In this document: piece after piece, positions 11,481 through 47,641 of the stretch
How the letters are laid out: every line of letters starts with the position of its first letter
Position numbering within the stretch: position 1 is the stretch's first letter
Made by a program: the position numbers and the translations under genes
The notes under the pieces: model-generated
What the model was told of the DNA's origin: nothing
Databases searched by the model: none
Seen by the model: only the letters and a program-made list of their open reading frames with translations
Source of the DNA: Sporomusaceae bacterium
GTDB lineage: Bacteria > Bacillota > Negativicutes > Acidaminococcales > JAJUGR01
Length of the DNA: 48,320 bases
NCBI GenBank assembly: GCA_029265905.1
Contig: JAJUGR010000016.1
Coordinates: forward strand, 1 to 48,320
Reading direction: 5' to 3'

Positions 11481-12662
11481 ATGCGAAAATGGTTGTTTAC
11501 GGCAGAATCTGTGACGGAGGGGCACCCTGACAAGATTTGCGATCAGGTGTCCGACGGCATTCTTGATGCGATCTTGAAGCAGGACCCGTACGGCAGAGTC
11601 GCTTGCAATGCGTTTGCGAGCAAGGGCATGGTCTTGGTGGCCGGGCAAATTACGACAAATTGCTATGTCGACATTCCCGGCATCGTCCGCCGGATCGTCA
11701 AAGAGATTGGTTATACAAAAGCTGAATTGGGGTTTGCCGGCGACAGCTGCGCCGTGCTTACGGCAATTGATGAGCAGTCGCCGGATATTGCCGCCGGCGT
11801 CGATGCTTCGATTGAGCGCAAAGGCGGCTCGGGGGACGCGTTTGATCAGCTTGGCGCCGGCGATCAGGGCATGATGTTTGGCTATGCCTGCAATGAAACG
11901 CCGGAGCTGATGCCCATGCCAATCATGCTGGCGCATAAATTAGCCAAGCGGTTGGCGGCTGTACGCAAATCCGGGGAGTTGCCTTATTTGCGGCCCGACG
12001 GAAAAACGCAGGTAACGGTTGAATATCATGGCGACCGTGTTGCTAGGGTGGACGCGGTTGTCGTCGCCTGCCAGCATGATGACAGTGTTGCGGTGGAGCA
12101 ACTGCGCCGGGATATTCTGGCGAAAGTGATCAGAAAGGTCGTGCCGCCGGAACTGGTGGACGAACAAACCAGCTTTTATATTAATGCGACGGGGCGCTTC
12201 GTCATTGGCGGCCCGCAGGCTGACAACGGGCTGAGCGGCAAAAAGACGGCCGTCGATACGTATGGCGGCTGCGCCCGGCATGGCGGCGGGTCCTTTTCAG
12301 GCAAGGACCCCACGAAGGTCGATCGCTCGGCGACCTATGCGGCCAGATATGTGGCGAAGAACCTTGTGGCGGCCGGCCTGGCGGATAAGTGCGAAATAGA
12401 ACTGGCGTATGTGATTGGCGTGGCGCATCCGGTTTCCATTTTAATCAACACTTTTGGTACGAACCGCATCGCGGAAGAAAAAATCCTGGCGCTGGTCGAG
12501 GAGCATTTCGACTTGCGTCCGGCAGCCATTATTGAGCACTTTGGCTTGCGGCGGCCGATTTATCAGCAAGTTGCCGCTTACGGCCATTTTGGACGCAGTG
12601 ATCTGGACTTGCCGTGGGAAAAAACAGACAAGGCTGACGCTTTGCGCAAAGCCTTGCGATAG
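11481..12662 (+). CDS. metK: S-adenosylmethionine synthetase
   Basis: MetK makes S-adenosylmethionine from methionine and ATP in the cytosol, working as a tetramer with Mg2+ and K+. The 393-residue length is normal. Visible signatures are [20 protein letters not shown] near residues 5-24, [12 protein letters not shown] near 126-137, and the phosphate-loop [16 protein letters not shown] near 269-284. ATG 11481 follows an AAAGGGGGG box; an earlier in-frame ATG at 11454 is less well placed. No SAM riboswitch precedes it. The next gene, a radical SAM enzyme, starts 13 bases after the stop, so enzyme and cofactor source are probably co-expressed. Confidence 0.98.
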
Positions 12663-12675
12663 GGGGCGATGGGTT

Positions 12676-13551
12676 ATGAAGGAGGCCATGCTGTACGAAC
12701 GTCTGGCGGACAAACGGGTGAAGTGCGCTGTTTGCAATCACCGCTGTACGATTGGAAACGGGAAACGAGGGATTTGCGGCGTGCGGGAAAACCGGGAGGG
12801 CACCCTATTCGCGCTCAATTACGGCAAGACAATCGCGGCGCACCTTGACCCGATTGAAAAAAAGCCGCTTTATCACTTTTTGCCCGGAACAATGATCTAC
12901 TCGTTTGCCGCGGTCGGCTGCAATTTCCGTTGCTCCTGGTGCCAAAATTGGGAGATATCGCAAAGCCCGAAACCGAATAAGCCGATCGAGGGGGTTGACG
13001 TGACGCCGCAGGAGCATGTGCGGCAGGCGCTTGAATACGGATGCCCTTCCATCGCTTATACCTATTCGGAGCCGACGGTGTTTGTCGAGTACGCCCTTGA
13101 CACCATGAAGCTGGCCAAAGATAACGGCTTGAAAAACGTGTGGGTGACGAACGGCTACATGTCACGTGAGACGCTCGACGCGATCATCCCTTATCTGGAC
13201 GCCACTAATGTCGACTATAAAGGGCCGAACGGCGGCGTTTATGAACAATACTGCGGAGCAAGCGCCGAACCGATTCTCGCGAATCTCAAATACCTCCACG
13301 AGGCGGGCGTGCACAACGAAATTACGACGCTCATTGTGCCCGGCGTTAATGACAAATATGAGCAATTGAAAGTAATCGCTTGCTTTATTGCCGAAGAACT
13401 CAGCCCTGACGTGCCCTGGCATATCAGCCGCTTTTTTCCAGCCTGGAAAATGATGAGCACGCCCGTTACGCCCTTGGAAACGTTGAAAATGGCGGAAGAA
13501 ATCGGGCGCAAAGCCGGGCTGAAACATATTCATATCGGCAATGTCTGGTGA
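12676..13551 (+). CDS. amrS: AmrS-type radical SAM enzyme (AmmeMemoRadiSam system)
   Basis: Radical SAM protein of 291 residues. The [4Fe-4S] motif is CNFRCSWC with C82, C86 and C89. An N-terminal cysteine set (C17, C20, C24, C34 in CAVCNHRC and GICG) matches the AmrS group, related to pyruvate-formate-lyase activating enzymes. The family is named for its co-occurrence with Memo and AMMECR1 proteins, but neither is present here. The exact reaction is not settled. ATG 12676 is preferred; the in-frame ATG at 12688 lies too close to its AAGGAGG. It sits 13 bases after metK and 31 bases before pncB. Confidence 0.87.
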   Translation: MKEAMLYERLADKRVKCAVCNHRCTIGNGKRGICGVRENREGTLFALNYGKTIAAHLDPIEKKPLYHFLPGTMIYSFAAVGCNFRCSWCQNWEISQSPKPNKPIEGVDVTPQEHVRQALEYGCPSIAYTYSEPTVFVEYALDTMKLAKDNGLKNVWVTNGYMSRETLDAIIPYLDATNVDYKGPNGGVYEQYCGASAEPILANLKYLHEAGVHNEITTLIVPGVNDKYEQLKVIACFIAEELSPDVPWHISRFFPAWKMMSTPVTPLETLKMAEEIGRKAGLKHIHIGNVW

Positions 13552-26712: not shown

Positions 26713-27882
26713 ATGATCAGGTTCAAGTTTCCAGGCAGCCAGGTGCCGGTCTATTCTTGGGCAAGCGACATTGATGCGGCAGCAAAAGAGCAGGTTGAAC
26801 ATTTGTCAAAACTGCCGTTTGCCTATGATCATATCGCAATCATGCCGGATTGCCACAGCGGATACGGCATGCCGATCGGCGGCGTGCTGGCCGCCGATAA
26901 CGTGATCATCCCCAATGCGGTGGGGGTCGATATTGGCTGCGGCATGATTGCTGTTAAGACGACGCTAACCGAGGTTACGGTGGAACAAATTAAACGGATC
27001 ATCGGCGAAGCGCGAAAAATCATCCCTGTCGGCTTCAACCATCATAAAGAGCGGCAGGAAAGTCCTGTATTTGACCATGTGCCTGACGTTGAGATCATTC
27101 ACATTGAACTGGATTCTGCCCGCCACCAGATTGGAACCTTGGGGTCAGGGAACCACTTTGTTGAGATTCAAGCCGGAGACGACGGGTTTATTTGGCTGAT
27201 GATCCATTCCGGAAGCCGGAATATCGGCAAAAAGGTATGCGATTGCTATAATGAAATGGCGGTAGGGTTGAACGCGCGCTGGAAGGTGGCGGTGCCAGCC
27301 GCGTGGGATTTGGCATATCTGCCGGTCGACACGCCGGAGGCGCAGGAGTATCTGGCGGCAATGGAATTTTGCCTGCGGTTTGCAAAAGCAAACCGGGCGC
27401 TGATGATGAAACGGCTAAAGGAGATTGTATTTGAAGTTGCCGGCGGCATGCAGCAAGCGGAAGAAATTTGCACGCACCACAATTATGCCGCATGGGAAGA
27501 GCATTACGGAAAACGCGTGCTAGTCCACCGCAAGGGCGCCATTCGCATGTTCAAGGGGGATATCGGCATCATTCCCGGCAGCATGGGAACGCCTTCGTAC
27601 ATTGTGAAAGGCTTGGGCAATCCGGACTCGTTCATGTCGGCATCGCATGGCGCTGGCCGAAAAATGAGCCGGGCGGAAGCGGACAAAACAATTTCCGTCG
27701 AAGAAGCCGACAAGGCAATGCGCGGAATCGTATATGGCCGCTGGAACCGTGACCGAAAGGGCCGCTTGGATTTGTCGGAATGTCCGTTGGCCTATAAGGA
27801 CATTGAAGAGGTGATCGAGCTGGAGCTTGATCTGATTAGACCGATTGTTAAGCTTCGGCCGCTGGGGGTTTTAAAGGGTTAA
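26713..27882 (+). CDS. rtcB: RtcB RNA ligase (3'-phosphate/5'-hydroxyl)
   Basis: GTP- and Mn2+-dependent RNA ligase of 389 residues that joins 2',3'-cyclic phosphate or 3'-phosphate ends to 5'-hydroxyl ends, as in tRNA repair. Metal ligands lie in VGVDIGCGM (Asp73, Cys76) and in the HHNYAAWEEH region; the guanylylated histidine is His312 in SASHGAGR. MPDCHSGYGMPIGGV near residues 40-54 is a further family signature. AGGGGTG precedes ATG 26713. An 82-base gap separates it from the ylxP-like gene. It is followed 33 bases later by thpR, whose product acts on the same type of RNA end. No RtcA or RtcR is present. Confidence 0.96.
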   Translation: MIRFKFPGSQVPVYSWASDIDAAAKEQVEHLSKLPFAYDHIAIMPDCHSGYGMPIGGVLAADNVIIPNAVGVDIGCGMIAVKTTLTEVTVEQIKRIIGEARKIIPVGFNHHKERQESPVFDHVPDVEIIHIELDSARHQIGTLGSGNHFVEIQAGDDGFIWLMIHSGSRNIGKKVCDCYNEMAVGLNARWKVAVPAAWDLAYLPVDTPEAQEYLAAMEFCLRFAKANRALMMKRLKEIVFEVAGGMQQAEEICTHHNYAAWEEHYGKRVLVHRKGAIRMFKGDIGIIPGSMGTPSYIVKGLGNPDSFMSASHGAGRKMSRAEADKTISVEEADKAMRGIVYGRWNRDRKGRLDLSECPLAYKDIEEVIELELDLIRPIVKLRPLGVLKG

Positions 27883-27915
27883 CCACGACAGGGGCGGCAA
27901 GGAGGGGGGACAGGG

Positions 27916-28518
27916 ATGCGGTTATTCATTGCAATTACTTTTTCCCAGGCGGTTCTGACGGCGCTGATTTCATTGCAAGCAAAACTGCAAGCCCTGTTAA
28001 CCAGGGGGCGTCTGGCACGTTCTGACAACCTGCATCTGACCTTGCAGTTCTTGGGCGAAACGCCGGCAGAAAAAATTCCAGCCATCGTTGCAGCGCTGGC
28101 AGAAGTGGCGAATACGAGTGCGGGGTTTGACCTCTCTTTTGGCGAGCAATTGGGCTATTTCGGGCGCTCATCCTTGGCGCGGGTGATCTGGCTGGGGATC
28201 GGAGAAGGGGGGGCGTCGTTACAGGTTCTGCAAAGCAAGGTTGCCGCCGCCGTGAAAGCGTTGGGCCTTCCGGATGAACCAAATGCCTATGTGCCGCATA
28301 TCACGCTTGCTCGCGATGCCCGCTTTGGTCGTCCGGAACTGCTGCAAAACGGATGCGTTTGTTGGAATACGGGCGCGCTGCCGAAACAAAGCGTGAGCAG
28401 CTTTTCCTTGTTTGCCAGCAGCCTTGAAAGCGGGCGGCGCGTGCACCGCTGCCTGGCGACATTCAAGCTCGCGGCTTCGGGCGCCGGTGACGCCGCGCCG
28501 CCCCCGGCAAAGTTGTGA
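27916..28518 (+). CDS. thpR: RNA 2',3'-cyclic phosphodiesterase (LigT/ThpR)
   Basis: Two-H phosphoesterase of 200 residues. It carries both HxTx motifs: HLTL with His40/Thr42 and HITL with His128/Thr130, arranged in two similar halves. ThpR opens 2',3'-cyclic phosphates on RNA ends to 2'-phosphates; some relatives were described as 2'-5' RNA ligases. AAGGAGGGGG lies in front of ATG 27916. It follows rtcB directly, so the two are probably co-transcribed. The last 20 residues are alanine/proline-rich and look unstructured. A new promoter follows for the next gene. Confidence 0.93.
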   Translation: MRLFIAITFSQAVLTALISLQAKLQALLTRGRLARSDNLHLTLQFLGETPAEKIPAIVAALAEVANTSAGFDLSFGEQLGYFGRSSLARVIWLGIGEGGASLQVLQSKVAAAVKALGLPDEPNAYVPHITLARDARFGRPELLQNGCVCWNTGALPKQSVSSFSLFASSLESGRRVHRCLATFKLAASGAGDAAPPPAKL

Positions 28519-34049: not shown

Positions 34050-34078
34050 TTGTCATGATTTTTTAATCACTCTATAAT
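34050..34078 (+). promoter_or_regulatory. Promoter of the GHKL ATPase gene
   Basis: TTGTCA at 34050-34055, a 17-base spacer and a perfect TATAAT at 34073-34078. Confidence 0.8.
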
Positions 34079-34161
34079 GAAAGTGACAGGAGTTGCTGGA
34101 GTCTGCTTGCGGGAAAAAACGCCGCTGCATTTCCTATTCGGGTATAGGGAGGATGAGGGCG

Positions 34162-36063
34162 ATGGCCGTTTTATCATTGCCGGTGGATCAGCGTGTGATT
34201 GATATTGACTCGCGGCGCTTTGCCTCCATTGAAAAGGCGCTCGTTGAACTAATCACCAATGTCGACGACAGCTACGCCCGTTTGGAACGCCACGGCGCTG
34301 CTGTCAGCGGCAATATCCGCATTACGTACGAGAGGCATCAAAACGGCGCGGTTTTAGGTGTGGGCGATCAGGCGGAAGGCATGTCGTTAGAGCGCATCCG
34401 CTCTGTTTTGTCATATGGCGGCGCACACAGCCTGTTGGCTCATGGCGAGGCGAGCGGACGGGGGTATTTCGGCCGCGGCATGAAGCAGGCGATTTACGGT
34501 TTGGGATACGGATGGGTCGAATCGCTGCAGGAGGGCCGGCTCAGCCGGGTTGACTTATTTCGGTCGGAACAAGGCACCTATTTGTACGACGACTGGGACG
34601 GCGACCGTCCAGCTGCGGAGCAGGATTATGCGAGGCTTGATATCCCCCTGGGCGGGAATGGGACGCGCGTTACAATCGTGGTTGAGAATCTTCAGACCAA
34701 CATCCCCTACTTTCGCTCGCTTGTGACAGCTGTCACCAATAATATTTATTTGCGTGACATTTTGCAACGGCGCACGGTTACGCTGGTGAGCGTGAATCCT
34801 GACAAGAAAAAACACGTTTCCGTGAAAGTCCGCTATGAGGAGCCTGAATCTGAAATAATCATTGGTCCGGACAGCCACGGCTCGTTTCTCTATAAGGACC
34901 AGGAGTATCCGTTTCAACTGACGTTGAAAAAAGCGGTGGGGGTGGAACTCGTTCTCAAAGGGGATGAGCGGACGAACGGCTTGCTGGTCATATCCGGAAC
35001 CGCGGTTTTAGATTGCCAGTTTTTCCGGTTTGAAAATCAATTGGGAACAGAGTATTTGTTCGGAGTCGTGTCCTGCCCGGCGCTAACTGACATGCTGGGG
35101 AAAGGCCACCCCGTGATTAGCGACGAGCGGGAGGGGTTGAACCTAAAGGATCCGTTTGTTGCCGCGTTTGCCAACGCCGTAAGCGACACAATTGCTGAAG
35201 CGGTCAGAAAGGAGCAGCAACGACTGAGCCATATCGAGCACGCCACCACCTCGCGGCGGACGCAGGTGCTGATCGAGCAGCTTTTGCGCCATATGAACCA
35301 GGTAGCGGCGGATGACCTGGGCATTGTCTTGCCGCCGGGGCCTGGATCGGGCCGATACGGCCCCGTCGACACGGGGCGACCGGCGGCGCTGCGCTTCAGC
35401 ATGCCTTTTTACTACCGGCAGGTTGGCCGTGCGTTTCGCGTGGCGATGATTGTTGACCGGGCTCAGCTGCTGAGTGAAGAGGTCCTCTCGTTTGTCTACG
35501 AACTGCCGGCAAGCATCAAAGCTGAACCGGCCTTAACCGACATGGAGGTTGCCGGCTTGCCGGACAATGGCCGTTTTGAGTGGACGCTGACCGGCTCTGA
35601 AATCGGGGCGCACGGCAGAATCGGCGTAACCTCCGGCCCGTACGCCGCCTTCTGCGAGGTGGTTATCGCCGAACAGGCTTCGGGCAAAGGCTATTACCAT
35701 CCGTCCGGACGGCCGTCAGCCCCCTGGCATTGGGATAATGGCACGGATCTGTTCAGGGGCTATGAATTGCGCAATCTGGACAATGACATTGTGCGGGCTG
35801 TCTATAGTCCGGAGGAGCGCTTGATTCTTATCAACACCGAAGCGCCGATCGTTCGATTGTATGTAAGCGGGCAAGGGCGCTTCAAGGACGGCGCCCGCCT
35901 TCTGTTGGCGGAGCTGTTTTTGGATGTCATTACGGACGAATTGGCCCGCCGCTATGTTGACCGGACGACGCAAAAAGGAGATTTCTCCGCGTATATGCAA
36001 GTTAAACAGACGTTTATCCGCCGCTACGGCGTTGAAATCCACCGCATTTTATTGGGCGACTGA
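34162..36063 (+). CDS. Free-standing GHKL (HATPase) protein of unknown function
   Basis: Soluble protein of 633 residues with an N-terminal Bergerat ATP-binding fold of the Hsp90/MutL/MORC kind. The N-box is ALVELITNVDDSYA (Glu29, Asn33, Asp36), the G1 box is VGDQAEGMS (Asp69, Gly73) and the G2 loop is GRGYFGRGMK (99-108). No histidine-phosphotransfer domain precedes it, so it is not an ordinary sensor kinase. Residues from about 200 on show no domain I recognise; a helical stretch lies near 355-395. ATG 34162 is preferred over ATG 34153, which directly abuts the AGGGAGG box. A nitroreductase gene follows after 27 bases. Such ATPases work in DNA handling, chaperone or defence roles; none can be assigned here. 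Confidence 0.85.
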   Translation: MAVLSLPVDQRVIDIDSRRFASIEKALVELITNVDDSYARLERHGAAVSGNIRITYERHQNGAVLGVGDQAEGMSLERIRSVLSYGGAHSLLAHGEASGRGYFGRGMKQAIYGLGYGWVESLQEGRLSRVDLFRSEQGTYLYDDWDGDRPAAEQDYARLDIPLGGNGTRVTIVVENLQTNIPYFRSLVTAVTNNIYLRDILQRRTVTLVSVNPDKKKHVSVKVRYEEPESEIIIGPDSHGSFLYKDQEYPFQLTLKKAVGVELVLKGDERTNGLLVISGTAVLDCQFFRFENQLGTEYLFGVVSCPALTDMLGKGHPVISDEREGLNLKDPFVAAFANAVSDTIAEAVRKEQQRLSHIEHATTSRRTQVLIEQLLRHMNQVAADDLGIVLPPGPGSGRYGPVDTGRPAALRFSMPFYYRQVGRAFRVAMIVDRAQLLSEEVLSFVYELPASIKAEPALTDMEVAGLPDNGRFEWTLTGSEIGAHGRIGVTSGPYAAFCEVVIAEQASGKGYYHPSGRPSAPWHWDNGTDLFRGYELRNLDNDIVRAVYSPEERLILINTEAPIVRLYVSGQGRFKDGARLLLAELFLDVITDELARRYVDRTTQKGDFSAYMQVKQTFIRRYGVEIHRILLGD

Positions 36064-36090
36064 GTGAAAACAAGAGGGAGGGAAATCAAC

Positions 36091-36651
36091 ATGAATGAAA
36101 CGCTAGCATGCATTATGAACAGGCGAAGCACGAGGGCTTTTTTGCCGGAGCAGGTCAAGGAAACGGAGCTGCAGGCGATTTTGCAGGCCGGCCTTCATGC
36201 CCCCAGCGCGCATAACGAACAGCCATGGCACTTTACTGTCATTCAAGACCAGCTGCTTTTGGCGGAATTAAACGCCGGGGCCAAGGAGGTGGGTAAAAAC
36301 GCCAACGATGCTCTCTTGCGTAAAATGTGCAGCAATGAACAACTGCATATTTTCTATCATGCGCCGACAGTTATCGTTGTGTCCGGCGAGGAAAAGGCGA
36401 TCATGCCGAAAACGGATTGCGCAGCAGCCGTGGAAAACATGCTGATAGCGGCTGAATCGCTAGGAATCGGTACCTGTTGGATCGGGCTGGCGATGTTAGC
36501 TTTCCAGGGAGAAAAAGCGGCGGATTATTGCCGGCAGCTCCAGATTCCTGATGGGTATGCGCCCTATTACGCCGTTTCCCTCGGCTATAAAAAGATTGCC
36601 GCTGTCAGTGCACCCCCCCGACGTGAAGACACGGTGAATTTTTTGCGGTAA
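36091..36651 (+). CDS. Nitroreductase family FMN oxidoreductase
   Basis: Flavoenzyme of 186 residues. The FMN-binding motif RRSTRAF lies at about residues 10-16, APSAHNEQPWHF at 42-53, and the conserved late motif ESLGIGTCWIG near 126-136. These proteins reduce nitro compounds, quinones or flavins using NAD(P)H; the physiological substrate is unknown. GAGGGAGGG sits 8 bases before ATG 36091. It lies 27 bases after the GHKL ATPase gene with no terminator between, so they are probably co-transcribed. A separate promoter follows for the ferritin-like gene. Confidence 0.9.
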   Translation: MNETLACIMNRRSTRAFLPEQVKETELQAILQAGLHAPSAHNEQPWHFTVIQDQLLLAELNAGAKEVGKNANDALLRKMCSNEQLHIFYHAPTVIVVSGEEKAIMPKTDCAAAVENMLIAAESLGIGTCWIGLAMLAFQGEKAADYCRQLQIPDGYAPYYAVSLGYKKIAAVSAPPRREDTVNFLR

Positions 36652-38781: not shown

Positions 38782-40317
38782 ATGGAGAAAGACCCGCAGA
38801 ATGTATATGAAGCGATGCAGCTATATTACGAAGAATATGAAGAGGGCGTTTATTTTACGCGCGAATTGACCGAGAGCTTCATTCGCCAAAAGGCCTGGCA
38901 GGGCGAGCGCGACGAGCAGCTTCAACGCATATGGGAACAGATAAAACTGTTTGAGCTTTACATTATGCATAAGCAGTTGGAAGCGCTGGCGTTTTTTGCC
39001 GCGGAAGACTATTTATTCAGCGCCTATTGGCTTGCGTCGGAAGAGGCAGATTGCTCGATGCCGCTGGATAATGCGTCTTTTTACCTGGCCGTGCTGGTTG
39101 AATTTGTGCAGTATATCCAAGAGCGGGACAAACAGTCCTTGGCCGCGCCCGCATTAGAAGCAAAGCGTCTTTTAGACGAAGGCTTCGATTTGCTGAGCTT
39201 TGAGAAGGCGGCTGGCGCCGGGGTGTTTGTGGCCGAACCAATTGATCCCGATGTTGACGCCGGCGAACTGTTCGAGTGGAGCCTCATGGAGGTGGTGGAA
39301 CAGGCAATCGACTATTTTGCGGACAACCCTGCCTTTCACCACGACTACCTGCGTTCCGTGAGCTGGTTCAACGGTTTGCTGGAAAACGCGGAGGAGGACG
39401 ATGATTTTTCCGCAGAGCTTTGGAATGACTATTGGTACTATTTTTTGTTTGAATATCATTTGCTGGAATCAGACAAAAAGCCCATCGCTTATTTTCTGGA
39501 GTCGGTTGATGTTGCGGACATGGAGCCGATTGTAGCCGATGTATTGCTGCGCTCGGAATTTATTTTGTTTTATGTTGAGCGTCAACCAATTGGGGACGCT
39601 GTTATTTGCCGCGATTTGATGACGGATGAACTGTTTGAATTGCCGGAACCGGATTCCGGATTGCCCTGGGCCGTCATGCGTCAGCAACTATTTATGGGCC
39701 AGCGGTATCGCTACGAAGGGCGCTATGGCGGACGCTACAGCAGTGTGCAAGTCAGCGCCAAATTGCGCAACCGGATTAAGACGGAACTGCAACGGCTTCT
39801 GACCGTGTTTCGCCTGCAGCGGCCGGATGCCTCCTGGCACGATCTGCTTGAGCGGCATACGCTTTTTATCCGCTATATGCTGGAAACGTTCGTCCGCTTC
39901 AATCAATTGACAGTATTTCCTGCCGAGCTGCCCAAGCAGGCAACGACCGCGTCTGTCCGCGATGGAGAGTTGCCTGCGGATGCGGTGGAAGCGGAAATAA
40001 ACCGTCTGGTTGCCATGTCGGTAGGCTTTTCAAAATACGATCAGCGCCTTGTTCATTTGCTCTGGCGGGATTTTCGAGCGGTGGCAGAACCGGCGCTAAC
40101 CGAATCGGCGAAAGCGTGGGCTATGGCGGTTTTGTCCTTGTTCAGCGAAAACAATCAGGTTCTGCAGAAAATGATCGCCTTGCAAATTAAGGCGTTTGCG
40201 CTCGATAAGGCGGAAATAAGCCGCTTGCGCACGCGAATCGGATCCGCATTAAAAATGGAGATGCCGGATTTTCGCTATTTGAATGAATACGGCTATGTTC
40301 GCTACCTGCTTGAATAA
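38782..40317 (+). CDS. Unrecognised acidic soluble protein
   Basis: I do not recognise this 511-residue protein. It has no signal peptide or membrane span. The first half is strongly acidic and rich in aromatic residues (LYYEEYEEGVYF near 14-25, NDYWYYFLFEYH near 214-225) and looks all-helical. The second half is more basic, with repeated leucine-rich helices (RIKTELQRLLTVFRLQR near 331-347). No catalytic motif or cysteine cluster stands out. The pattern would fit a helical scaffold or a protein that reads nucleic acid or protein partners, but that is speculation. It has its own promoter, and a small membrane protein follows after 29 bases. Confidence 0.75.
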   Translation: MEKDPQNVYEAMQLYYEEYEEGVYFTRELTESFIRQKAWQGERDEQLQRIWEQIKLFELYIMHKQLEALAFFAAEDYLFSAYWLASEEADCSMPLDNASFYLAVLVEFVQYIQERDKQSLAAPALEAKRLLDEGFDLLSFEKAAGAGVFVAEPIDPDVDAGELFEWSLMEVVEQAIDYFADNPAFHHDYLRSVSWFNGLLENAEEDDDFSAELWNDYWYYFLFEYHLLESDKKPIAYFLESVDVADMEPIVADVLLRSEFILFYVERQPIGDAVICRDLMTDELFELPEPDSGLPWAVMRQQLFMGQRYRYEGRYGGRYSSVQVSAKLRNRIKTELQRLLTVFRLQRPDASWHDLLERHTLFIRYMLETFVRFNQLTVFPAELPKQATTASVRDGELPADAVEAEINRLVAMSVGFSKYDQRLVHLLWRDFRAVAEPALTESAKAWAMAVLSLFSENNQVLQKMIALQIKAFALDKAEISRLRTRIGSALKMEMPDFRYLNEYGYVRYLLE

Positions 40318-45889: not shown

Positions 45890-47641
45890 ATGCGCGTATT
45901 GCTTACGGCGTTCAACAGCCGGTTTACTCATTCCTCATTGGCGCTTAGGTATCTTGATGCCGCTTGTAAAAAAGCCGGGCACGATGCTTCAATATATGAA
46001 ACGACCATTCAGACGCCTTTGGCCAGCGTTCTGATGGAAGTCTATCAGCGGCGGCCGGAAGTGGTAGGGCTTGCCGTGCATATTTGGAATCGTGATTTGA
46101 GCCTGTCCCTTGCGGCGGCGATTAAGCAGGTGATGCCGCAGACGCGGGTTGTTGTCGGCGGGCCGGAGGTAACGTATGCCGCACGTGCGGTGCTGGAGGC
46201 AAATCCGGCGATCGACGCGGTTGTTATGGGCGAAGGGGATCAGCTCTTCCCGCAGCTTTTGTCCGATCTGGCTGAACGGGGCGCGTTTGTGTCCCGCCCG
46301 GGTCTGGCGTTTCGCACCCAAGCCCAAATTGTGCTCGAAGGCGGCCCGCTGGAGGTTGCCGAATTAGATGATTTGCCTTTTCCGTATTGCCATGCCGCAG
46401 AAAACGAATGGCGCGACCGCGTCTTGTATTATGAGACGTCGCGCGGCTGTCCATTCCGCTGCGCGTACTGCTTGTCGGCTGTCAGCCGCAGCGTTCGCCG
46501 GCGCTCGTTGCCGGTTGTGCTGGCGGAATTGGCGACCATCATAAAAATGAGACCGCGCCAGGTGAAGTTCGTCGACAGGACCTTTAACCTGGACGAAGCC
46601 TATTTCCGGCCGATTTTAGCTTATTTAGCCGAGCAGGACACGGAGCTGGAGTTTCACTTTGAATTAGCGGTGGAGCGCCTGTCGGAGTCCTTTTTAACTT
46701 GGTTGGAAAGCGCGCCGCCGGGGCGGTTCCGCTTTGAAGTCGGGGTCCAGACGATTACGCCGGATGCCTTATGCGCCATTAACCGGCAGCAAGACTGGGC
46801 AGTGGCAAAAGAGCGGCTAAGTCGCTTGTGCGCGCTGCGGAATTGCGTCACCCATCTGGATCTGATCTGCGGCTTGCCGCATGATACGCCAGAGAGCTTC
46901 GCTGCCGCCCTGGATGCCGTTTACCGGCTCGGACCGGATGAATTGCAGCTTGGTTTTTTGAAGCTGCTGCCCGGCGCGCCACTGCAACAGGAAGCGGCGC
47001 GCTATGAATACCGCTATTTGCCCAATACGCCGCCGTACGAAGTGTTGGCCTCGAAAACCATGCCGTATGAGGACATGAGTCGTTTCAAGCGCATGGAAGC
47101 GCTGTTGGATCAGTTGTATAACACCGGGCGGTTCAAACGCATTGTCGCACTGTTGGTCGAGCAAGTTTATGAGCGATCAGTATCGCGTTTCCTGCGGGCT
47201 TTGAGCGTGTGGTGGGAGGGGGAGGGGCTGTTTCAAGTGCAGCAGAACCCGCGGGTTGCGGCGGAACATTTATGGCGGTTTGTGCAAACCTTGCCGGAAC
47301 GGATCCAGCCGGCCGCCGCAGAGTGCTTGATGCTTGATGTCCTTGTCTTCCAGCCTGGTTGGCGGCCGGCCTTTTTGCCGTGGCGCAACGAAAGCCAGGA
47401 AGCGATGGCGGTCGCCTTTTGGCGGGACGAGGAGCGGGTTCGTCGCTATTTGCCGGATTATCAGCACCTGTCCTGGCGGGAGATTAACCGGCGCTACGCA
47501 GTGGAGTGGTTTTTGGCTTATGACCCCGTTGGCGGGGGACTGTCTGGGGAAAGGCAAGCGGCAAGACCGGTGCTTGTTGATTTAACAAGCGAGTATGCAA
47601 AATGCTGGCAATTGACAGAAAAACAAGGGGCAATTGAATAA
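45890..47641 (+). CDS. B12-binding domain radical SAM protein (DUF4080 type)
   Basis: Protein of 583 residues. The N-terminal cobalamin-binding-like domain (about 1-140) has the GGPEVTYAA loop. The radical SAM core follows, with the cluster motif CPFRCAYC (Cys187, Cys191, Cys194) and later VKFVDRTFN and FEVGVQTI. The C-terminal third has the DUF4080 arrangement. The usual cobalamin-binding histidine motif (DxHxxG) is not seen, so B12 may bind base-off or not at all. Substrate is unknown; relatives include methyltransferases and hopanoid or antibiotic enzymes. GGGAGGTG precedes ATG 45890. It is followed by an independent promoter. Confidence 0.9.
   Translation: MRVLLTAFNSRFTHSSLALRYLDAACKKAGHDASIYETTIQTPLASVLMEVYQRRPEVVGLAVHIWNRDLSLSLAAAIKQVMPQTRVVVGGPEVTYAARAVLEANPAIDAVVMGEGDQLFPQLLSDLAERGAFVSRPGLAFRTQAQIVLEGGPLEVAELDDLPFPYCHAAENEWRDRVLYYETSRGCPFRCAYCLSAVSRSVRRRSLPVVLAELATIIKMRPRQVKFVDRTFNLDEAYFRPILAYLAEQDTELEFHFELAVERLSESFLTWLESAPPGRFRFEVGVQTITPDALCAINRQQDWAVAKERLSRLCALRNCVTHLDLICGLPHDTPESFAAALDAVYRLGPDELQLGFLKLLPGAPLQQEAARYEYRYLPNTPPYEVLASKTMPYEDMSRFKRMEALLDQLYNTGRFKRIVALLVEQVYERSVSRFLRALSVWWEGEGLFQVQQNPRVAAEHLWRFVQTLPERIQPAAAECLMLDVLVFQPGWRPAFLPWRNESQEAMAVAFWRDEERVRRYLPDYQHLSWREINRRYAVEWFLAYDPVGGGLSGERQAARPVLVDLTSEYAKCWQLTEKQGAIE

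Follow-up and report, generated by a model that had tools for sequence, protein, structure and literature searches.

In GHKL proteins, the binding of ATP joins two GHKL domains and hydrolysis parts them, and in MORC proteins, MutL and topoisomerases this cycle drives the opening and closing of a DNA clamp. The passages of the survey by Iyer, Abhiman and Aravind (2008, PMC2292703) devoted to prokaryotic MORC-like ATPases describe them mainly within restriction systems together with helicases and nucleases, and report a patchy spread for MORC and some paraMORC genes. There, paraMORC proteins comprise a GHKL domain followed by further domains, and a subset of paraMORC3 is stand-alone. For VcSduA, a GHKL-Shedu protein of Vibrio cholerae with the GHKL-nuclease arrangement of the paraMORC3 type, passages of its description report protection against phage (PMC12137116), while part of a further report connects paraMORCs and restriction loci with a different HATPase_c_3 family (PMC8011034). 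Here, a GHKL ATPase of 633 residues (P0001) is compared to these systems. Its gene lies at 34162..36063, stop codon included, on contig JAJUGR010000016.1 of a Sporomusaceae bacterium (GCA_029265905.1); the whole analysed stretch of 48,320 nucleotides is called the window, and all features of the window given below lie on the forward strand.

With a probability of about 0.42, we consider this protein, a GHKL ATPase that stands alone, to lie on or near the MORC/paraMORC radiation, where it forms a rare subfamily of its own and would act as a clamp, gated by ATP, on DNA or on complexes of DNA and protein. A DNA-directed role is favoured by the MORC-like N-terminus, a restriction-linked relative and the patchy spread of the family, and since neither conserved partners nor a nuclease were recognised, a clamp acting alone or via unlinked proteins is favoured. 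In such a mechanism, two subunits would dimerise via their ATP-bound GHKL domains, the transducer-like and immunoglobulin-like domains would close as a clamp round DNA or a complex bound to it, and release would follow from the hydrolysis of ATP. The ATPase may work alone or with unlinked partners. It could police or compact certain DNA (foreign, or carrying abnormal modifications), or send a signal to enzymes of restriction or repair.

The open reading frame of the ATPase is intact, with the coding part at 34162-36060 and the stop codon at 36061-36063. The encoded protein, whose layout of about 633 residues is conserved, carries a GHKL domain with conserved boxes, and no nuclease, kinase or chaperone module was recognised in it. 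The N-terminal GHKL (Bergerat) domain covers approximately residues 1-176 (34162..34689), based on Pfam, the match to a MORC profile and a low-confidence structure model. The Pfam family HATPase_c_3 was found at residues 22-118 with 27 bits (cut-off 25) and an E-value of 5.1e-6, and it was the sole domain above the cut-off. According to an alignment of eight sequences (A1), E29 and N33 of the N box ELITN (residues 29-33, 34246..34260) are invariant in 8/8, and the same holds true for G101, G104, G106 and K108 of the G2 box GYFGRGMK (residues 101-108, 34462..34485). Both boxes are therefore intact, as claimed for all three boxes in the sequence-only reading, an earlier annotation of this DNA. 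The G1 box DQAEG (residues 69-73, 34366..34380) showed invariant D69, E72 and G73 in 8/8, but deviates slightly from that claim, since the family comprises D-x-[A/S]-E-G instead of D-x-G-x-G and the first glycine is alanine or serine in all eight sequences. Apart from this replaced glycine, the profile match above the cut-off and the conserved boxes place the protein among the Bergerat-fold ATPases. A codon-by-codon comparison of the window gene with four relatives showed differences of 0.60-0.65 at third and 0.17-0.29 at second positions. Since the divergence is much higher at third than at second positions and full-length homologues exist, the reading frame did not arise by chance but encodes a protein under constraint.

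The relation to known GHKL groups was examined by hhalign with a profile of seven family members, and column shuffles served as controls. Compared to six prokaryotic MORCs, residues 1-116 matched with a P-value of 3.7e-8 and a score of 72, while the best of 100 shuffles reached 24.7. In contrast, only residues ~19-80 matched 19 HtpG and 30 MutL sequences, with P-values of approximately 1e-3. Thus, of the three known GHKL groups in this comparison (MORC, HtpG and MutL), MORC gave the best profile match. The AlphaFold2 model of full-length P0001, calculated from four input sequences, showed a predicted local distance difference test (pLDDT) value of 48, and its residues 15-227 (low confidence) aligned with Hsp90, GyrB, Topo VI-B and SMCHD1 at tied Z-scores of about 13, with MORC3 also present in the Foldseek matches. 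Due to the low pLDDT, which was 55 when residues 405-633 were folded alone, the fold matches represent weak evidence.

The profile of the seven members also detected a GHKL protein of 784 residues, which had not been used to build it, in a genome of the same phylum (G598, L018:1104-3455, reverse strand). This protein was matched over residues 22-314 by profile and over 26-354 by hhalign, with a P-value of 1.3e-18. Residues 177-633 alone matched it with a score of 40.3 (0/100 shuffles as high) and residues 177-360 with a P-value of 1.8e-5 (0/100 shuffles as high), while residues 345-633 alone were weakly colinear with it (score 27.2, 1/100 shuffles as high). The matches across 26-354, 177-633 and 345-633 suggest that the two proteins are probably homologous over their full length. 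This likeness extends weakly towards the C-terminus. The relative differs from the window protein by an identity of only 24%, about 150 additional residues and a restriction-modification/DndB setting. Its gene shares a strand with those of an N6/N4 methyltransferase, a type IIG restriction-modification protein (PADLOC E-value 3.1e-252) and a DndB-family protein (Pfam E-value 1.7e-64). The stretch from 1104 to 11943 of L018 is an apparent restriction-modification neighbourhood and also includes a protein of 213 residues without a Pfam match, whose gene overlaps that of the 784-residue protein.

The family is rare, with full-length relatives in 3/299 other genomes of the same class (identities of 60-67%) and in 4/245 genomes of an Arthrobacter-type family, where a fifth match was a MORC. 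The homologues at the seven other loci are 53-67% identical to the window ATPase over their full length. In a sample of 398 genomes of the phylum, the sole matches were the genome of the window itself and one distant relative. The class of genome G300 showed the family in 2 of 296 genomes, both already counted, and in the class of G598 a relative was found in G598 only, among 154 genomes. A pattern-based contig scan, which detects close relatives only, yielded three Arthrobacter/Pseudarthrobacter loci, all belonging to the four Arthrobacter-type genomes. Weak matches to a prokaryotic MORC (G733/L014) and to a histidine kinase, recognised by eye (G1276/L031), were left out of the family count, as was a match of 41 residues (G1214/L019). 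The patchy spread covers two distant groups, and in the phylogenetic tree, the same-class and the Arthrobacter-type groups are split with full support, with weak support inside the same-class group. A transfer between the two groups, in either direction, is likely. No paper recognisably on this ATPase family was present among the matches listed for the open PMC literature.

A number of observations weigh against the placement next to MORC and against a DNA-directed role. The N-terminus of the MORC profile also matches HtpG (P-value 2.3e-8) and MutL (3.0e-10), and the 784-residue relative matches the MORC profile with a P-value of only 3.9e-4. The N-terminal similarity is therefore partly a general GHKL similarity, and this match alone does not place the family with MORC. 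When residues 177-360 were compared to the S5 regions of MORC, HtpG and MutL, 23, 89 and 62 of 100 shuffles, respectively, were as high. The link to restriction stands on one distant genome, and no family member was found in the plasmids, phages and viral contigs searched. Among 16 neighbours of the ATPase in the window, scanned with Pfam or NCBIfam, there is no helicase, methylase or restriction nuclease. Furthermore, the family loci examined showed no set of genes recognised as defence or restriction; at the other loci this covers nine neighbour proteins from 6/7 loci scanned with PADLOC, with the remainder read by eye.

The comparison with the MORC signature GhXhhpXXRhl, which belongs to the S5-fold domain following the GHKL domain in MORC proteins, gave a mixed result. 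In the relaxed form, with the last two positions free, the signature was found in 6/6 MORCs, 0/19 HtpG and 0/30 MutL, compared to 1/6 MORCs for the strict form. P0001 contains it in neither form and the strict form occurs in 0/8 sequences of A1. The relaxed form is present in 2/8 (L003 and L017) at an ISDER/ISDDR stretch at residue 315, which means that the family does not lack the signature altogether. Residues 273-283 were considered by eye as a signature with alanine for arginine (7/7), but a profile comparison of the S5 region only gave no support, and this candidate was rejected.

Beyond the GHKL domain, residues 177-360 (34690..35241) are a candidate transducer (S5-like) region with helices, where the S5 assignment is inferred from position and the full-length model showed a pLDDT below 50 for residues 247-348. 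R323 in the motif ISD[ED]R[ED]GLN of this region is conserved in 7/7 and may resemble a catalytic basic residue of Hsp90-type proteins. For residues 406-506 (35377..35679), AlphaFold2 on four sequences predicted an immunoglobulin-like beta-sandwich. When residues 405-633 were folded alone, it appeared as a seven-stranded sandwich at ~416-502, with a pLDDT of 67-81 over ~425-494. Its matches in the PDB were generic immunoglobulin-like structures with Z-scores of 7-8, near background, and the domain is predicted with moderate confidence. The conserved C-terminal region, residues 541-633 (35782..36060), comprises a beta-hairpin followed by two predicted helices, and over residues 541-600 the family shows an identity of 68-81%.

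Searches of Pfam, NCBIfam, PADLOC and PHROGs gave no family of kinase dimerisation domains, MutL, Hsp90 or nucleases up to an E-value of 1, and a sequence search of the PDB with the ATPase gave no match. For residues 177-633, 48 and 33 of 100 column shuffles were as high as the match to the profiles of 19 HtpG and 30 MutL, respectively. An Hsp90 or MutL architecture, considered as a candidate, is rejected by sequence profile, since only residues ~19-80 match and residues 177-633 lie at shuffle level. P0001 showed no Pfam HSP90 match that would stand for the middle and C-terminal domains of Hsp90, no Pfam match to the DNA_mis_repair S5 and C-terminal domains of MutL, and no MutL endonuclease motif. 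The arrangement of histidine kinases is likewise absent, since the ATPase domain is N-terminal and no HisKA or other kinase domain was found in Pfam. The C-terminal PD-(D/E)xK (DUF4263) nuclease of paraMORC3 and GHKL-Shedu proteins was not found by Pfam or PADLOC, and no HxH motif is present in P0001. A loose PD-(D/E)xK pattern occurs at residue 587-588 in three sequences and at 541-571 in three others; due to these differing positions it is not common to the family.

These data confirm the description as a free-standing GHKL ATPase in the sequence-only reading, based on the intact frame of 633 residues, the HATPase_c_3 match of 27 bits and the absence of a recognised kinase, MutL or Hsp90 architecture. 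Its statement that kinase dimerisation domain and MutL-type C-terminus are missing also held, and the match of the C-terminal part to a kinase, MutL or Hsp90, which it had named as contrary evidence, did not appear. It had called the C-terminal part unknown, which is correct with respect to known architectures, but this part is shared with the 784-residue protein of the restriction neighbourhood and is predicted to contain the sandwich at ~406-506. The structure prediction it had proposed thus gave this sandwich at moderate confidence, within a region of low overall pLDDT.

Compared to the prokaryotic MORCs, the window protein shares the N-terminal GHKL ATPase with its best profile match and the patchy spread, whereas it lacks the signature and an adjoining helicase or methylase in the window, and is shorter, with 633 residues compared to 750-802 for five complete MORCs. 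Four of five MORC plasmid loci showed a gene for a DEAD/DEAH helicase downstream and a cytosine methylase nearby, with an intervening transposase gene in one of the four, while the fifth, from Streptomyces, showed neither within the stretch read. One of these helicases was scanned and comprised the Pfam domains Mrr_cat and ResIII. The neighbourhood usual, although not universal, for MORC and paraMORC genes (SFII helicase, methylase, restriction nuclease) was not found among the 16 window neighbours scanned. By their published description (PMC2292703), paraMORC1-5 resemble the window protein in the GHKL domain followed by further domains and, for the paraMORC3 subset, in standing alone; they differ from it in that neither a TIR or nuclease family (Pfam, PADLOC) nor HxH was found in P0001. 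VcSduA is likewise a single protein with an N-terminal GHKL ATPase, but according to passages of its description (PMC12137116) it ends in a DUF4263 nuclease, which was not found in the window protein. With Hsp90 (HtpG), MutL and GyrB the protein shares the Bergerat ATPase fold, while the profile match to HtpG and MutL, the two of these groups compared by profile, is limited to ~19-80 and leaves the C-terminal part unmatched.

The ATPase could also be a protein chaperone of the Hsp90 type, an ATP-gated clamp that remodels client proteins and is unrelated to DNA. This is unlikely, but it would agree with a single gene without conserved partner and with the gene of a universal stress protein being the next one in two related genomes (L015 by Pfam, L016 by similarity). 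The low-confidence full-length model also aligns with Hsp90 at a Z-score of ~13, although tied with GyrB and Topo VI-B. On the other hand, the N-terminus is closer to MORC than to HtpG, residues 177-633 show no match to HtpG (48/100 shuffles as high) and the sole distant full-length relative is restriction-linked. The window's own genome holds separate HtpG and MutL genes, therefore the ATPase replaces neither of them.

A single-gene system against phages or plasmids, in which the ATPase senses foreign DNA without partner genes as VcSduA does with its own nuclease, has to be regarded as similarly improbable. No nuclease or effector domain was recognised and PADLOC gave no match, the plasmids, phages and viral contigs searched were free of the family, and the gene lies inside the range of its neighbours in both GC content and GC at third codon positions (GC3). 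These points stand against the patchy spread, the own promoter-like site and the lack of a conserved neighbour, which would fit a defence gene, as would the phage protection reported in passages on VcSduA, a GHKL-nuclease of the paraMORC3 type (PMC12137116). An accessory factor of DNA repair or chromosome maintenance that, like MutL, cooperates with repair proteins encoded elsewhere appears still less probable. Passages of PMC2292703 place related GHKL proteins in mismatch repair and DNA topology, and the position of the gene is conserved in two related genomes (L015, L016). However, the occurrence in 3/299 other genomes of the class argues against a core repair function, and the MutL endonuclease motif is missing.

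Upstream of the gene, the start at ATG 34162 is indicated by the ribosome binding site GGGAGG (34147..34152, recognised by eye) 9 nucleotides upstream and by homologues starting at the same place. The gap before the gene is AT-rich, with GC down to 0.39, and contains a promoter-like sequence TTGTCA-17-TATAAT (34050..34078), a consensus match at 11/12 positions. Of the strong own promoter across an AT-rich gap proposed in the sequence-only reading, the site and the gap were thus found, but with four promoter-like sites observed in the scanned region compared to 2.6 expected, the count alone is not significant. The gene showed a GC of 0.564 and a GC3 of 0.662, compared to 0.489-0.565 and 0.556-0.695 for nine other genes of the window, and therefore does not have the look of a fresh arrival.

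The ATPase is followed by a nitroreductase-family gene of 186 residues (36091..36651, Pfam PF00881, E-value 6.8e-33), which is a neighbour only. If ATG 36091 is its start, it lies 27 nucleotides past the ATPase stop, and since no terminator-like site lies between them, the two genes may be co-transcribed here. The pairing of both genes, also taken from the sequence-only reading, was not conserved. In an all-against-all BLASTP comparison (E <= 1e-10, open reading frames of at least 80 residues) of the window from 24 kb and the seven family loci, of which L003 and L016 have short upstream flanks of 1.4 kb and 536 nucleotides, no nitroreductase homologue was found in the seven other loci. A conserved partnership is therefore rejected, and the adjacency is, on this comparison, probably accidental. 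A homologue of the rubrerythrin-like gene of the window was equally not found in the seven other loci. Every locus compared contains the ATPase and reading frames antisense to it, and no other gene is present in all of them. A GGDEF-EAL-type gene is common to the window and L017 only, the Arthrobacter-type loci L002 and L029 have three neighbours in common (judged by eye as ArsR-, SRPBCC- and SDR-like), and L015 and L016, from the same order, share genes for a sensor kinase, UspA and hydrogenase-type proteins, partly named by eye.

The neighbours in the window are unremarkable and include a mechanosensitive channel, the nitroreductase, the rubrerythrin-like protein, a MATE transporter, NAD synthase and threonine synthase, among others. 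The survey for linkage to defence or repair suggested earlier was thus negative for the 16 window neighbours and positive for one distant relative. At L004 (Arthrobacter sp. SPG23), a lone PD-(D/E)XK-like HSDR_N protein, named by Pfam, is encoded at 12000-13088 on the reverse strand, ~2 kb from the ATPase, and was the sole, weak PADLOC match among the nine neighbours scanned. L017 shows a DEAD-box helicase with the look of an RNA helicase ~6 kb from the ATPase, as judged by eye. Elsewhere in the window, an RtcB-like RNA ligase (below cut-offs) followed directly by an RNA 2',3'-cyclic phosphodiesterase (above cut-off) at 26713-28515 is a possible RNA-repair pair. A protein of 511 residues (38782-40314) showed no match in Pfam, NCBIfam or PADLOC at E <= 1, and one of 583 residues (45890-47638) resembles B12-binding radical SAM enzymes below every listed family cut-off.

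A further reading of the clamp is modelled on C. elegans MORC-1, which is reported to entrap DNA topologically and to condense it (PMC8277788). The ATPase might be an autonomous bacterial MORC-like silencer, i.e. a nuclease-free enzyme that clamps or compacts particular DNA instead of cutting it, but this seems rather doubtful. By the same analogy, and with as little confidence, it could be a stand-alone bacterial counterpart of the animal and plant MORC proteins acting on transposons, sharing its ancestry with the restriction-linked relative. If the protein turned out to be an ordinary chaperone, its interest would be modest. As a conserved stand-alone family in which no nuclease is recognised, however, it would allow the action of an ATPase clamp of this kind to be studied in isolation, and the same question bears on the MORC proteins of eukaryotes.

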